Assembly: GCF_007785775.2 (NCBI RefSeq)
Contig: NZ_VNIK02000009.1
Coordinates: 1-64,000 of the forward strand
DNA from: Flagellimonas hadalis
Lineage (GTDB): Bacteria; Bacteroidota; Bacteroidia; Flavobacteriales; Flavobacteriaceae
Direction: 5' to 3'
Length of the DNA: 64,000 bases
Below the pieces are notes generated by a model, which saw nothing but the letters and a program-made list of their open reading frames with translations, did no database searches and was not told where the DNA came from. The position numbers and the translations under genes are program-made. Shown in pieces: positions 328 to 48,206 of the stretch; position 1 is the stretch's first letter; every line of letters starts with the position of its first letter.

Positions 328-1059
328 TTATTGTTGAAATCCAAGTAAAGTTGCAGCCTCACTAAAACTTTCGGGCATGTTGTTGGTCAAATCATTGGCT
401 TGGGCAATGTTGGCAGGGACAATTACATACTTAATCAAATAGTTATTGTTATTTTCCATTGAGGATACATTGATCGATTCACCTCTTATGACCAATCCGG
501 GCACAAAAACGTTGGGATCGTTAGAGGTCACTGTATAAAAAAAGAGGCGTTCCGAACCGTCCTCGTGTGGAAGTGGTGTTGTGAAGGTTGCCAAACCGAT
601 ATCACGCCTTAAATAAAGCAGAACGACTCCCCCTGTATCAAGGAACGTCGTGATGTCATTAATACCTGGTATTTCCCCGATGACCATTTCTCCCCAGGTA
701 GGAGGTACATTGTTGTCTACACTGTCCCAAACAATTTGCATCCAATCGGAAACAATCACATTGGCACTTCCATCTTGACCCGGATTTCCTTGAGCCCCCT
801 GTTCTCCTTGTGGCCCTTGTTCTCCTTGAGGCCCTTGTTCTCCTTGCGGGCCTTGCTCCCCAGGTACCCCTTGCTCTCCCTGAGGCCCTTGTTCTCCAGG
901 TACTCCTTGAGGCCCTTGTGCCCCTTGAACTCCTTGGATTCCCATTTCTCCGTTGATTCCATCTGTACCATCTTCACCCGAACAGGAAACGATGAATATA
1001 CCCATTCCCAGTAAAAGGAGAAGTGACATTTTTGATAGGTGTATAAGTGTTTTTTTCAT
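328..1059 (-). CDS. collagen-like (Gly-X-Y repeat) lipoprotein
   Basis: The 243-residue product has a type II signal peptide with lipobox FIVSC (Cys26). Residues 28-97 form an uninterrupted Gly-X-Y tract dominated by GEQ and GPQ triplets. A globular C-terminal domain of about 145 residues matches no family I recognise. Bacterial collagen-like tracts usually form trimeric stalks; here the lipid anchor would be N-terminal and the C-terminal domain the head. The tandem paralogue at 1-186 shares both ends of the repeat (SCSGEDG and GQDG-ANVIVS), so the copies differ mainly in repeat number. No TAnnTTTG promoter box is seen upstream. Confidence 0.9.
769..978 (-). repeat. collagen-coding DNA repeat (9/18-bp periodic)
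   Basis: Codes for residues 28-97 of the collagen-like lipoprotein. From about 793 to 888 an 18-bp unit encoding GPQGEQ recurs in near-identical form. The low-complexity code leaves other frames open on both strands (for example 736-1014 plus, 756-977 minus); these are shadows. The tract is a likely site of repeat-number variation. Confidence 0.85.
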
Positions 1060-44003: not shown

Positions 44004-45179
44004 TCAGCGGTCCAAGAAGAGATAGCCAGTGTATTGCAGGTTCAGGTCGTCCAGGGTAACAAGGTAATAGTAGACCCCTTCGGGCAAGCCAATGTCCTGG
44101 CTCATGATAAGGCTCCCGGTATTGGAATCGCCCCGGAACTCGTTGGTGTAGTTGATCTTCTCAAAGACCTTTTGGCCAAACCGATTAAAAATGCGCAGGC
44201 TGTTGTTGGGTGATTCGTCCATGTTGTCGATCATCAGAAAATCGTTCACCCCATCACCGTTGGGACTGAGAAAATAGTTGCCCAAGGTAGGGTTGTTCAC
44301 CGCAAAGGTGTCCGTGGGGAGTGGAATGGTGCCAAAGGTAATGGCCGCATAATCGCTGGGCAGAAAAGTGTCGGACGTAACGAACCCTTGGTTGATATCA
44401 CCGCTGAAGGCCGTGTTGCCAAGGACGACCCATTGTTTGGAAGACTTTAGCCAACCCACCACGATGACCGATTCGGCCGTGGCATTGGGGATAAGGGCCA
44501 GTCCGCTGCCCACATTCCAGCTTATCGTGACCTTTGCGGGCACATCGCTTTGAAATATCCAAAATTCGCGCTCGGATATGGTGCCGATGTCCCTTACTTT
44601 CCGATCGGTATCCAAGCTTTGTGGAAGAAACGAGGGGGTAGCTGGGTTTTCATCAAAATAGGCGCAAATGGCCAAAGGTGTTGCCCCTTCGGACTCAAAG
44701 GTCAAGGGTCTCAACAAGGCGTTATCCCCAACGGGAAACGAAAAAAAGCTGCGGTTGTTGATGGCGGCAAAGCCCGTGACCTTGGATTGATCGTTTTCAC
44801 CGGTAAAGAACCCTTGGTCCATAAAGTTGAGGAAAACGGCCTGGTTGTCCTTTGGGCTCAGGAAATTGCCATCCACAAAGTTGACATTGTTCTTTACGTG
44901 GAGCGTGTTCTGCAGAAAAACCCGGTCGAGGATCATGATTTCGGTGTCCCACAGATGGGCGGGTGTGTTGCCCGATACTTCGATCGTGGTATTGCCATAG
45001 AAGCCTACCAGCCCCTCGGACTGATCAAAGACGGCATTGTTGATAAAGTTGGTGTGCAGGCCCAGCCCGCGGTTGGGGCCGCCATTATGTACCTGCATGT
45101 TGCCGGCATGGTGCAGTGCGCTCTGGGCAGAAACGCCTTGGGCGAACAAGAGAAATGCTATGAGGTGGAGGGGTTTCAT
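44004..45179 (-). CDS. T9SS type B sorting domain (gliding-motility-associated C-terminal) protein
   Basis: 391 residues from the ATG at 45177-45179. A signal peptide (MKPLHLIAFLLFAQGVSAQ) is followed by about 280 residues of beta-rich sequence. The C-terminal 90 residues are the type B CTD: NYFLSPNGDGVNDFLMIDNM, NSLRIFNRFGQKVFEKINYT, LPEGVYYYLVTL and the end YTGYLFLDR. Such domains direct secretion by type IX and retention at the cell surface. The ATG overlaps the stop of the upstream decapeptide-repeat gene (TAATG), so the two are translated together. Confidence 0.9.
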   Translation of the reverse strand: MKPLHLIAFLLFAQGVSAQSALHHAGNMQVHNGGPNRGLGLHTNFINNAVFDQSEGLVGFYGNTTIEVSGNTPAHLWDTEIMILDRVFLQNTLHVKNNVNFVDGNFLSPKDNQAVFLNFMDQGFFTGENDQSKVTGFAAINNRSFFSFPVGDNALLRPLTFESEGATPLAICAYFDENPATPSFLPQSLDTDRKVRDIGTISEREFWIFQSDVPAKVTISWNVGSGLALIPNATAESVIVVGWLKSSKQWVVLGNTAFSGDINQGFVTSDTFLPSDYAAITFGTIPLPTDTFAVNNPTLGNYFLSPNGDGVNDFLMIDNMDESPNNSLRIFNRFGQKVFEKINYTNEFRGDSNTGSLIMSQDIGLPEGVYYYLVTLDDLNLQYTGYLFLDR

Positions 45180-47704
45180 TAAAAATCTGTAATAGTAAAG
45201 AACCAACCAGCGTCAGCATTTGAATAAGTTATGTCAGGTACTGTAAATGAATTCACAGTCCCAGTATGAGTATGGCTATCGGCACCTCCAGGATCTGTAA
45301 TAAGCAATGGTGATATCGGTACTGTATTGATCACAGGTTCGGAAATGGAAACTGTAAACTGAGTTGTAGATTGAGAGGTGACTTGAATAGTGGAACCTGT
45401 TGATGAATTGAACAAGGTTAGTTGAATGATGTATTCTGCATCTGGTCTAGCAGTATCAAAGGTTACAGTATAACTTCCAGTACTGTTTTGGATTACACTT
45501 GCGCCATTTGCGTTAACTATACTTGCATCGCTATTTACCTTGCCCATGGCCACAACTGCTGGAGCTTGCCAACTAACAATACCACCTATGGTGGTAAGTA
45601 CATCGCCATCTGTTGGAGAAGAGGAAGGTTCTATTTTTGCTGGGGTGACATTTGCATCGGCTATCTTGTTAGTGATAACTGCGCCATCTGCAATTTTATC
45701 ACTTGAAACACCACCATCGGTTATCTGAACCCCATTGGCGGCATCTACTTCAAGTGTATTATTGTCTACATTGACTTGAAGATCCATTGACACTAGAGCA
45801 GCATTGTTTTGTACACCCGAGATAGATCCATCAGTTGATACAACATTTTGTCCAAGTCCTGTGACAAGTGAGGCCTCTTCCCATGTGGTGGTTAAGGCAT
45901 TCCATCTTATGATATTATTGTCGACGGTCCCATCGGCAAGTTTCGCAAGGGTGACGTTTGCATCGGCTATCTTGTCCGTCATGACTGCCCCATCTGCAAT
46001 TTTATCAGTTGATACACCACCGTCAATTATCTGTATTCCGTTTGTAGCTTCTACTTCAAGAGTCACATTATCCACATCAACATCAAGTGCTCCACTTCCA
46101 TTCTGGATCAATCCGTTTCCAGCCACATCGATATTTATGGTGGCCGCATTGACGGCATCGGCTGCAATGTCCGTTGACCCCACTGCCCCGGTTGCTATTT
46201 TATCGGTTGTCACCGCATCCGCCTGTATGGTTGTCACGCCAAGGTTGTCAATGTTGACATCACCTGTCATAGGAACCCCACTTGCAACATTGGACCCATT
46301 TCCTACGAATATCTGACCATTGTTAAGGGTAGAGGAGGCGAAGTTGGCCCTGTCCTCCCACAAGGGGTCTCCAGTTGCATTCGTGGTGAGTACCCTATTG
46401 GCATCAGCCGCGCCAAGGGTTCCAATTTTGTCAATGTTTACCGCATTGTCTGCAATATCAATTGTGGCAATGGTGCCATCCAGTATTTTAGCTGATGTGA
46501 CTGCGCCATCCGCTAGATCAGCAGCAACAATGGCCCCGTCAGCAATTTTTGCCGAGTTGATAGCATTGTCGACTATATCAATTGTGGCAATGGTGCCATC
46601 CAGTATTTTTGCTGATGTGACTGCACCATCTGATAAATCCGCAGCGATGATAGTCCCATTTATAATCCTTCCAGAGTTAATGGCATTGTTGGAAATCTTA
46701 TTCGTGGTTATGGCCCCATCAGCAATATCGGCTGTAGCAATGGTGCCATCCAGTATTTTGGCTGAGGTGATGGCATTATCCGCCACATCAATGCCCACAT
46801 TTTCCAAAAGTGAGCCACTTGGGGTTCCCGTAAGGGCAATGGTGCTTGCAGGAGAAGATAGGGACCCATCTCCTACAAGATCGGAAACCACAACTTCCAG
46901 CGAACCGTCCGCCGCTTGGTTGAGGCCGTTGCCTGCAACATTTGCATTTATTTTTTCATTGGTCACTGAATCATCGGCCAACTCATTGGTGCCAATTCCT
47001 AAAGGAGAAACACCTAGGGTATAGGGAATATCAATCCCATTACCTGTTCGGGTCAAGGTACCGTCAGTAGCATCTACCACTTCGTTTCCAATGATACCAT
47101 CCACTTCGGTGATACTAATATCCGCTTGGTTGATCAGCGTCCATGCGCTTCCATTCCATTGGAAAAGGTCGCCATTGGCACCTCCATCCTGCAAATGGGA
47201 GAGCCCCACCGAGCGAGGGGCCAAATCTTGGCTGCCCACGGTCCCGTTTTGGATCTTGTCCCCGTTTATCGCGGAGGGGGCAATGTTGGCCCCGTTAAGG
47301 ATGCCCACTTCAAAGTTATAGTTGATGCTGCCATCCGGGTTGGGTGTTTCCGTGATCACCACAGTGTCGTCCAGCGCATTGGGGTTGATGGGTCTCATGT
47401 GTTCTGCCAACGTGCTCACGGTGAACGAATTGTCCAGTGATTCGCAAATGTTGATCCATTCGTCCCCGTTGTAATAGTGCAAACAGTTTTGGTTCGTGTT
47501 GTAGACCAATGCACCGCGCAAGGGGGTGATGGCGTTCATTTGGACATCGGTCACCCTTGTGATCACCAGCACACTTGAGGTGCTTTCCAATTCCAGAATA
47601 GAAGAAGGATTCAATGTTTGGGGATTGTCCCCTATCTTGACCTGCGCGGTCAGGGTGTGGGTCATCAGTAGGGCAATGACCAAGTAGCTAATGTACGTTT
47701 TCAC
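45179..47704 (-). CDS. large decapeptide-repeat (fibre-like) surface protein
   Basis: 841 residues from GTG at 47704, chosen because a -7 box covers the alternative GTG at 47740 and because it gives a clean signal peptide (KTYISYLVIALLMTHTLTAQ). A short N-terminal domain (LELESTSSVLVITRV, NQNCLHYYNGDEWI) resembles those of flavobacterial tail-fibre-like proteins. The body has many 10-residue units of the type DGAVTSAKIL/DGTIATIDIA; twelve follow without a break at 46421-46780, and shorter runs occur on both sides. A unique C-terminal domain of about 120 residues ends WFFTITDF. The period suggests an elongated repetitive beta fold. It has no CTD of its own. Confidence 0.85.
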   Translation of the reverse strand: MKTYISYLVIALLMTHTLTAQVKIGDNPQTLNPSSILELESTSSVLVITRVTDVQMNAITPLRGALVYNTNQNCLHYYNGDEWINICESLDNSFTVSTLAEHMRPINPNALDDTVVITETPNPDGSINYNFEVGILNGANIAPSAINGDKIQNGTVGSQDLAPRSVGLSHLQDGGANGDLFQWNGSAWTLINQADISITEVDGIIGNEVVDATDGTLTRTGNGIDIPYTLGVSPLGIGTNELADDSVTNEKINANVAGNGLNQAADGSLEVVVSDLVGDGSLSSPASTIALTGTPSGSLLENVGIDVADNAITSAKILDGTIATADIADGAITTNKISNNAINSGRIINGTIIAADLSDGAVTSAKILDGTIATIDIVDNAINSAKIADGAIVAADLADGAVTSAKILDGTIATIDIADNAVNIDKIGTLGAADANRVLTTNATGDPLWEDRANFASSTLNNGQIFVGNGSNVASGVPMTGDVNIDNLGVTTIQADAVTTDKIATGAVGSTDIAADAVNAATINIDVAGNGLIQNGSGALDVDVDNVTLEVEATNGIQIIDGGVSTDKIADGAVMTDKIADANVTLAKLADGTVDNNIIRWNALTTTWEEASLVTGLGQNVVSTDGSISGVQNNAALVSMDLQVNVDNNTLEVDAANGVQITDGGVSSDKIADGAVITNKIADANVTPAKIEPSSSPTDGDVLTTIGGIVSWQAPAVVAMGKVNSDASIVNANGASVIQNSTGSYTVTFDTARPDAEYIIQLTLFNSSTGSTIQVTSQSTTQFTVSISEPVINTVPISPLLITDPGGADSHTHTGTVNSFTVPDITYSNADAGWFFTITDF
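46421..46780 (-). repeat. twelve consecutive decapeptide-coding 30-bp units
   Basis: Twelve units of exactly 30 bp encode decapeptides following the pattern D/N-x-A/T-h-x-x-x-x-I/L-x. DNA copies such as the segments near 46458 and 46578 are almost identical and exactly 120 bp apart, showing recent duplication of a four-unit block. Further isolated units lie at about 45600-46030 and 47160-47280. Confidence 0.88.
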
Positions 47705-47739
47705 GGTGTCAGTATTTGAGGTTTTCCTAACGTAATCCA

Positions 47740-47747
47740 CAAAACTA
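47740..47747 (-). promoter_or_regulatory. -7 promoter box of the decapeptide-repeat operon (TAGTTTTG)
   Basis: Exact TAnnTTTG on the minus strand, 35 nt upstream of the GTG at 47704. It overlaps the alternative start at 47740 and so argues against that start. Confidence 0.5.
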
Positions 47748-48206
47748 ACCTTATCGATCCATTTTTATGTCATTTCCCGTCCAAATGCGAAGTTCAGGGG
47801 TGAACGGGTTGCGGGTTTCGAGTTGGGACAAAAGACGATGGACGATAGATAATAGACGAGAGACAAGAAACATCAGACAAGAGGCAAGAAACGCGAAACC
47901 TCAAACCTGAAACCTGAAACTTGAAACCTGAAACCTGAAACCTTGTGACCATGAGAGCTAAACTGCGTACCGCCCACTGTAATCTGCCTACTGGACAAAT
48001 AGAATTAACAAAAGTTTAGAACCCCTATATTTTTTTATATGCGCTTCAAAGGTTTTCTTTAACTTGTGCTAATGTTTTCTTGATAAGAAACGGTTGGCAT
48101 ACTTGTCATGCAGGTGTGGTCGGGAACTTTGGGGTCCCTATCTTATGGCCTGTGGCGATAAGCATTTGTTCTGGCCCAGAAGGGCATCACACTAAAAACC
48201 CACACC
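47748..48206. other. long intergenic region upstream of two divergent surface-protein loci
   Basis: About 460 bases with no supported gene. It contains a purine-rich stretch (47825-47893), a 7-bp tandem repeat (47895-47943) and AT-rich sequence near 48020. A plus-strand frame at 48080-48325 overlaps the next gene and has no protein-like features. No exact plus-strand TAnnTTTG was found. Confidence 0.5.
47895..47943. repeat. heptamer tandem repeat, 7 x GAAACCT
   Basis: Seven copies in a row of GAAACCT, two with one substitution (CAAACCT, GAAACTT). Likely variable in copy number. It lies upstream of both divergent operons. Confidence 0.85.

Follow-up and report, generated by a model that had tools for sequence, protein, structure and literature searches.

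What joins a fibre-like protein that has a signal peptide and no sorting domain to the gene directly downstream, which encodes a cargo of the type IX secretion system (T9SS)? This question is raised by two adjacent genes on contig NZ_VNIK02000009.1 of Flagellimonas hadalis (Flavobacteriaceae; assembly GCF_007785775.2), of which we analyzed positions 1 to 64,000 (hereafter, the window). A preliminary description had read the locus as a long decapeptide rod coupled to a secreted, anchored T9SS partner. Our analysis indicates that the products of the two genes, fibre protein A and partner protein B, probably form a homotrimeric surface fibre that is held at its N-terminal head by a dedicated, T9SS-exported partner. 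The evidence is computed and comprises the structure of the genes, the conservation of the pair, its co-occurrence across genomes, the matching trees of head and partner, the exchangeability of shafts and tips, and the predicted folds of B and of the A tip. The rod with an anchored T9SS partner hence stands as the best reading of a conserved pair, but it had been drawn too narrowly, the decapeptide rod being one of several exchangeable shafts.

Organization and conservation of the gene pair

Both genes lie on the reverse strand, as do all of their parts given below. Fibre gene A (45179..47704, stop codon included) encodes 841 residues from a GTG at 47704, and partner gene B (44004..45179, stop codon included) encodes a T9SS type B cargo of 391 residues. 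The A stop codon TAA (45181-45179) and the B start codon ATG (45179-45177) have one base in common (TAATG), bearing out the earlier statement that B begins inside the stop codon of A.

To place this pair among its relatives, genus and family loci were fetched and their open reading frames (ORFs) were searched with profiles for B and for the conserved N-terminal module of A, the head. Full-length B orthologues were identified in 33 of the 36 genus genomes, its own included (59-78% identity, its own apart), and 18 of the 36 also carry a paralogue of B (36-43% identity). In the wider family, B is present at E up to 1e-20 in 64 of 249 sampled Flavobacteriaceae genomes (60 of 235 genera), and the cassette of head gene and B is found in about a quarter of the sampled family. 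The preliminary description had proposed conserved adjacency in related genomes as its test, and the two genes proved to be a conserved unit: a head gene lies less than 200 nt upstream of the genes for 74 of 111 distinct close B proteins, with 56 strong heads (E up to 1e-20) and 18 looser ones (E above 1e-20), and the head-to-B gaps in these 74 cassettes range from -71 to 137 nt (median 3). A further 13 have a head gene 200-3000 nt upstream (11 strong, 2 looser), several of these representing a single fibre gene broken by N runs or a frame break and others having real intervening genes. Draft-assembly contigs frequently break off within or next to cassettes, which long repeats would lead one to expect, and cassette counts are therefore lower bounds.

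Some cassettes (L036, L037, L039, L101, L129 and L134, among others) hold small fibre genes of a second type, with a looser head, between the main fibre gene and B. One or two such extra genes occur per cassette, some of them with their own tip families.

The pair is also seen at larger taxonomic distance. We inspected 20 class-level loci, chosen by hand and most of them because the match fell in the B body. In other Bacteroidia families, the B-body genes of L251, L252, L256 and L257 (the last weakly scored) lie downstream of a head-like gene, the C-terminal domain (CTD) being of type A in L251 and L256. The same order holds for L254, from the window's own family, and L255 is a cassette of that family. 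No fusion of a fibre head with a B body, which would have spoken for contact, was found in these 20 loci, and the B open frames of the family sample span 339-450 aa. Among seven more distant B-like proteins (L141-L147, one of them near a contig end), none has a head gene by the profile used; the genes upstream of L143 and L146 begin like the looser head version and were left out of the counts.

Co-occurrence and joint divergence of head and partner

In the 249 sampled genomes, strong heads and close B proteins occur together in 56, B alone in two (G161 and G164), the head alone in three (G064, G095 and G140) and neither in 188, with limits (E up to 1e-20 for the head and 1e-50 for B) that were set after a gap in the E-values had been seen. 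The corresponding Fisher value is 2e-49, a figure that ignores shared ancestry.

The divergence of the two proteins was then compared across the 77 cassettes in which a strong head lies no more than 4 kb upstream of B. The distance matrices of head and B correlate with r 0.636, against a maximum of 0.199 in 2000 permutations. When partners were swapped within the 20 genomes that hold several cassettes (41 cassettes), a procedure that keeps the species history, r averaged 0.167 over 2000 trials and never exceeded 0.46, compared to 0.626 observed. Head-B pairs travel and diverge together.

Exchange of shafts and tips

The constant elements of the family are the N-terminal head and partner B, while rod and tip vary or give way to collagen. 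Across 18 orthologues from the genus, identity to the window's proteins is 59-78% for the head and 58-71% for B, while the alignment of rod and tip is partial. The fibre ORFs of these orthologues measure 366 to 1050 aa, several of the short ones being broken by N runs or a frame break. The longest head-bearing fibre at the fetched family loci has 2483 aa, and the genome head search turned up an open frame of 3849 aa. By BLAST, the last 140 residues of 103 fibres group into 20 clusters, some of which are artefacts of cut genes.

One cluster of 20 of the 103 fibres (L046, L052, L071, L076 and others) ends in a shared domain, HLPGIKSA...LEKIEELFLHTIEQEKK. This domain resembles chaperone tails of the S74 type known from phage fibres; for L046, Pfam returned nothing.

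Cassettes were assigned to two classes of B on the basis of six genus reference cassettes, by a difference that is 0.05 or less in many distant cassettes and with head and B calls that disagree in 10 of the 77. Decapeptide-rich rods (five or more units) occur in 20 cassettes of the first class and two of the second. Runs of at least 20 Gly-X-Y collagen triplets are present in 12 of the 77 cassettes, all of the second class (L086 and L128 narrowly), and both class 2 fibres that were scanned, L086 and L089, match Pfam Collagen (PF01391; E 5e-148 and 3e-265 in the two). The longest run, of 578 triplets in L086, would be roughly 500 nm long at the collagen helix rise of 0.29 nm per residue. Phage tail fibres also make up many of the PHROG hits to collagen fibre L089. 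Since collagen is a trimer, the presence of the same head on collagen rods counts in favor of a trimeric fibre.

Predicted structure of fibre protein A

Protein A begins with a signal peptide, recognized by eye (...LTAQVKIG), which is followed by the head (residues 21-95, 47420..47644), the constant module of the fibre family and a probable trimerisation domain, with 12 invariant columns across 45 heads. Residues 309-428 (46421..46780) hold twelve exact, consecutive decapeptide units with a hydrophobic residue at every fifth position, and further units occupy residues 561-600 (45905..46024) and 663-692 (45629..45718), with single units scattered elsewhere. Both the twelve units, which the preliminary description had numbered 321-440 from a GTG at 47740, and the presence of more units elsewhere in the chain agree with what it had reported. 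Self-identity of the protein amounts to 117 at lag 10 and 115 at lag 20, and the larger of the two did not exceed 93 in 1000 protein shuffles. The repeat region matches the PHROG tail-fibre family phrog_892 (E 2e-35, best stretch 344-462). The C-terminal tip domain (residues 715-841, 45182..45562) is predicted to be a beta sandwich resembling those of tailspikes and H-type lectins.

In family searches, A exceeded no Pfam cut-off and matched nothing in NCBIfam at E up to 1, and its reported lack of a sorting domain holds by both collections, which contain no T9SS sorting domain or CTD matching A. A CTD profile likewise found none among 116 fibre sequences, including some cut ones (best E 0.21), and apart from the signal peptide no export or anchoring signal of a known kind was found in A. 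There is no Pfam match at E up to 1 to a YadA-type C-terminal membrane anchor, the C-terminus modelling as a lectin-like tip, nor to the pentapeptide-repeat family, a helix idea that had come from the five-residue hydrophobic spacing; collagen Gly-X-Y (PF01391) gave no match in A. A sequence search of solved structures at E up to 1 returned nothing for either protein of the pair.

The AlphaFold2 single-chain model of A, built from 27 sequences, has a mean predicted local distance difference test score (pLDDT) of 54. The score is 74-85 over head residues 51-90 and below 50 over residues 21-45, and the tip reaches 74-94 over residues 711-800 and 83-90 over 821-840. In model alignments, the tip superposes on the tailspike tips of phiAB6 (Z 8.9, root-mean-square deviation [rmsd] 2.6, 87 residues) and Pam1 (Z 8.8, rmsd 1.9, 69 residues) and on Helix pomatia agglutinin (Z 6.6), and AP22 gp53 and R-pyocin fibres align too. 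By Foldseek, the best E for the tip is only 0.014, and the Pfam family Gp53-like_C matches below its cut-off (E 0.17). Residues 46-88 of the head match the domain at the N-terminus of Mtd (Z 6.0, rmsd 2.1, 43 residues) and CBA120 TSP3 (Z 5.2), and the head also superposes on the trimer domain of collagen XV (Z 5.0, rmsd 5.5, 51 residues). Mtd, the tailspikes and the collagen XV domain are trimers. Of the BFVD entries, 34 matched A at E up to 0.001, and these include phage tail fibres. Taken together, the modelled folds of tip and head and the existence of collagen-bearing relatives suggest that A is a trimeric fibre.

Partner protein B and its secretion setting

Protein B consists of a conserved body (residues 20-295, 44295..45122; pLDDT mostly 92-98) and the type B T9SS CTD that had been reported for it (residues 302-391, 44007..44276), which scores above the curated cut-offs of CHU_C (88.6 bits, cut-off 27) and TIGR04131 (38.5 bits, cut-off 35). 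These are the sole Pfam and NCBIfam matches of B, which thus include no transporter family of the Omp85/TpsB type. The AlphaFold2 model of B, from 112 sequences, has a mean pLDDT of 92. Its CTD aligns with the T9SS CTDs of NucA (8glk; Z 7.5), PorZ (Z 7.8) and mirolase (Z 6.2), a result that we read as a fold match only, because streptococcal proteases score as high (Z 8.3). The body has no clear match among solved folds, and Foldseek returned nothing for B at E up to 0.001; VIA-align matched mainly the CTD, and its weak rows (Z 5-6), in which the body appeared GAIN/ZU5-like (about residues 110-287) or tailspike-like (17-216), were not used. The closest named relative of B among the matches listed (80 of 263 places, a list that may omit entries from the window's own genome) is from Allomuricauda abyssi (65% identity).

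The genome encodes SprA (2917 bits), and the T9SS translocon is therefore present. Of its 20 type B CTD matches, 19 over cut-off, 12 have a PorP/SprF neighbour by coordinates and eight are orphans, among them B and a paralogue of it encoded on contig C2. The head profile finds two heads in this genome at E up to 1e-10: one precedes B, and the other precedes the C2 paralogue, from which it is separated by two further genes with signal peptides. The six remaining orphan type B cargo genes lie on contigs C54 (two), C56 (two), C7 and C2, and the head profile finds no head there.

Excerpts of PMC12618676 describe T9SS substrates with a signal peptide and a C-terminal signal, and state that the CTD decides the destination of type B cargos, that these are mostly only predicted adhesins, and that three orphan type B cargos of F. 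johnsoniae (Fjoh_1123, Fjoh_1720 and Fjoh_4934) share one shuttle. Passages of PMC9143113 report binding of type B cargos to PorP-like proteins, which are presumed to retain the cargos on the cell surface. No described role for orphan type B cargos was found.

Start codon, promoter and other features of the window

The preliminary description had given A a length of 841 residues and counted from an upstream GTG at 47740. That length is correct for the GTG at 47704, whereas the upstream codon would yield 853 residues and is the less likely start, because a Bacteroidota-type -7 promoter box, TAGTTTTG (47740..47747), predicted to serve the fibre-partner operon, sits right at it. The residues VKT at the position of GTG 47704 are also the N-terminal start of several A homologues. 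The box follows the pattern TAnnTTTG, which we take to be the Bacteroidota-type -7 consensus; no -33 TTTG at the usual spacing from it was found in the window. Among relatives, 53 of 90 strong head genes have TAnnTTTG in the 120 nt before them, where shuffles predict 6.9, and 45 of these carry it at a distance of 25-49 nt. It occurs within 120 nt upstream of 6 of 111 B genes, where the DNA is mostly coding, the shuffle expectation having been computed for heads only.

Seven copies of the 7-base unit GAAACCT lie at 47888-47943 of the window, 150-200 bp upstream of A. Phase variation through this repeat was considered and dropped, as Tandem Repeats Finder located it in the window only among the 450 bases upstream of head genes at 20 genus loci. 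The window also encodes a second, separate collagen-type protein, a collagen-like product of 243 aa (328-1059, reverse strand; Pfam Collagen E 3e-16) with a lipoprotein-like signal (VSCS) recognized by eye.

A two-part surface fibre and its alternatives

In the model that we favor, A and B would be made from one promoter and would cross the inner membrane by Sec. A would fold as a homotrimer, with the head as trimer clasp, the decapeptide stretch as shaft and the lectin-like C-terminal domain as an adhesive tip that may bind glycans. B would be exported by the T9SS via its type B CTD and would remain on the outer membrane alongside a shuttle of the PorP/SprF type. The conserved body of B would grip the constant head of A and display the fibre at the surface, with shaft and tip exchangeable in evolution and the anchor unchanged. 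A constant head beside a constant B, with all distal parts exchangeable, fits what is expected of an anchor interface. A itself might cross the outer membrane together with B, the most economical route given that A lacks a sorting signal; we put forward this co-export tentatively, as a possibility that falls short of even. A broader version, on balance doubtful, is that these fibres are T9SS passengers without a sorting signal, and that trimers, including collagen of perhaps about half a micrometre, leave head-bound to a short CTD carrier that later becomes their anchor.

Several observations weigh against a fibre held by B. None of the 15 PorP/SprF genes of the genome adjoins the A-B pair. 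Among the 111 close B proteins, 16 show no head and lie less than 3 kb from the end of a contig, and eight have at least 3 kb of upstream DNA and no recognised head. In three of these eight (L107, L127 and L130) a very long ORF extends past the end of the fetched DNA or of the contig, and that of L130 bears a head by the whole-genome head search; in two (L116 and L124) the upstream gene encodes another secreted protein, and in three (L074, L131 and L139) nothing was seen upstream. At looser limits (E up to 1e-10 for the head and 1e-20 for B) the association is weaker, with heads in 90 genomes, B in 64 and both in 58, so that heads of the looser kind are also found without B. The structural matches of the head are middling (Z 5-6 over some 45 residues), and the single-chain model of A contains no confident rod (pLDDT about 39-52). 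Furthermore, the B body is found inside larger proteins (671-2443 aa) of other Bacteroidia families, with no head gene, at 14 of the 20 class-level loci (L239-L250, L253 and L258), and physical linkage alone could yield the joint divergence of head and B without contact.

The last two points, together with the failure of the profile to find a head gene beside any of the seven more distant B-like proteins, would suit A and B as two independent adhesins of one operon, B alone sitting on the surface, A being released or displayed otherwise, and the two sharing only their regulation. This is unlikely in view of the strict-limit co-occurrence across genera and of the head-then-B order, which is kept at up to four B copies per genome and in other families; it would also leave A with no export or anchoring signal beyond its signal peptide among those of known kind. 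Somewhat unlikely, too, is that B acts as an assembly or tethering cap once A has crossed the outer membrane by another route, and so anchors A and does not carry it. Co-transport with B would indeed be demanding for fibres that are this long (up to the 3849-aa open frame) and possibly folded, and anchoring needs only the surface position expected of B; such a cap, however, requires a further exporter for the CTD-less A, and no third gene common to the cassettes was seen, optional second fibre genes apart, in an inspection that was not a systematic search.

Alternatively, the C-terminal domain of A could hold an unrecognised signal that makes A a T9SS substrate in its own right, as befits the combination of signal peptide and C-terminal signal in the substrates described in the excerpts of PMC12618676. 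We regard this as very unlikely, since no common signal was seen among the 103 fibre C-termini with their 20 BLAST clusters and the CTD profile finds none. The resemblance of rod and tip to phage tail fibres might even suggest a remnant of a phage or phage-tail-like particle, but in 50,697 phage records the head is found in only three, weakly and over half of the query, and B in one, over 10% of the query. The nine window ORFs scanned, including the closest neighbours, belong to housekeeping, peptidase, Omp85 or collagen families only, and B is retained at full length in 33 of 36 genus genomes, all of which renders a phage origin highly improbable.

If the two-part surface fibre is correct, the B family would be an anchor for modular fibres, the rule by which each T9SS effector bears a signal of its own would have an exception, and the Flavobacteriaceae would have a system of surface fibres with shafts and tips swapped in the manner of phage tail fibres; the conserved head and anchor could then serve as a display platform. 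Were signal-less passengers also to be confirmed, cargo and sorting signal would be separated in the T9SS, and the cassette would be a general display platform for interchangeable fibres. A literature search for a link to the appendages of Muricauda gave nothing usable.

Comparison with known systems

The building blocks of the cassette are known, and their pairing looks like an undescribed way of placing fibres on the cell surface. No description of a fibre head combined with a T9SS partner was found in the open-licence full text of PubMed Central (subscription papers lying outside this scope), in keeping with the preliminary description, which knew of no rod coupled to a CTD protein.

B shares its type B CTD, over cut-offs, with the T9SS type B cargos SprB, PG1035 and Fjoh_1123/1720/4934. 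According to the excerpts of PMC12618676, the F. johnsoniae orphans likewise have no PorP/SprF gene beside them. SprB, as portrayed in passages of PMC9143113, is one long repetitive chain with its own CTD, in contrast with A, which is a separate, CTD-less fibre. Phage tail fibres and tailspikes (phiAB6, Pam1, AP22 gp53, PHROG 892 and Mtd) are similar to A in repeat sequence, in the predicted tip fold and possibly in having a trimer head, but A is a cellular gene product with a signal peptide and a T9SS cargo partner, and no virion family is represented among its scanned neighbours. Two-partner secretion is likewise encoded by two-gene operons, yet no Omp85-type partner is among the Pfam and NCBIfam matches of A and B; trimeric autotransporters likewise present a trimeric rod with an adhesive end, which is predicted for A, whereas no YadA-type anchor is among these matches.

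Bacterial collagen-like adhesins resemble the class 2 cassettes in their PF01391 rods. The A protein of the window has no collagen, however, and the class 2 fibres bear the cassette head and are encoded beside a T9SS cargo. The closest system in working principle is BclA-BxpB of the Bacillus exosporium, in which, as far as excerpts of PMC10470788 describe it, a trimeric collagen-like filament is held via its N-terminal domain by a separate basal protein. BclA-BxpB belongs to a Gram-positive spore coat with no T9SS, and the likeness to A-B concerns this principle; no relation between the anchors was noticed, though none was looked for. In both cases a trimeric filament, predicted for A-B, would be held at its N-terminal end by a separate protein.

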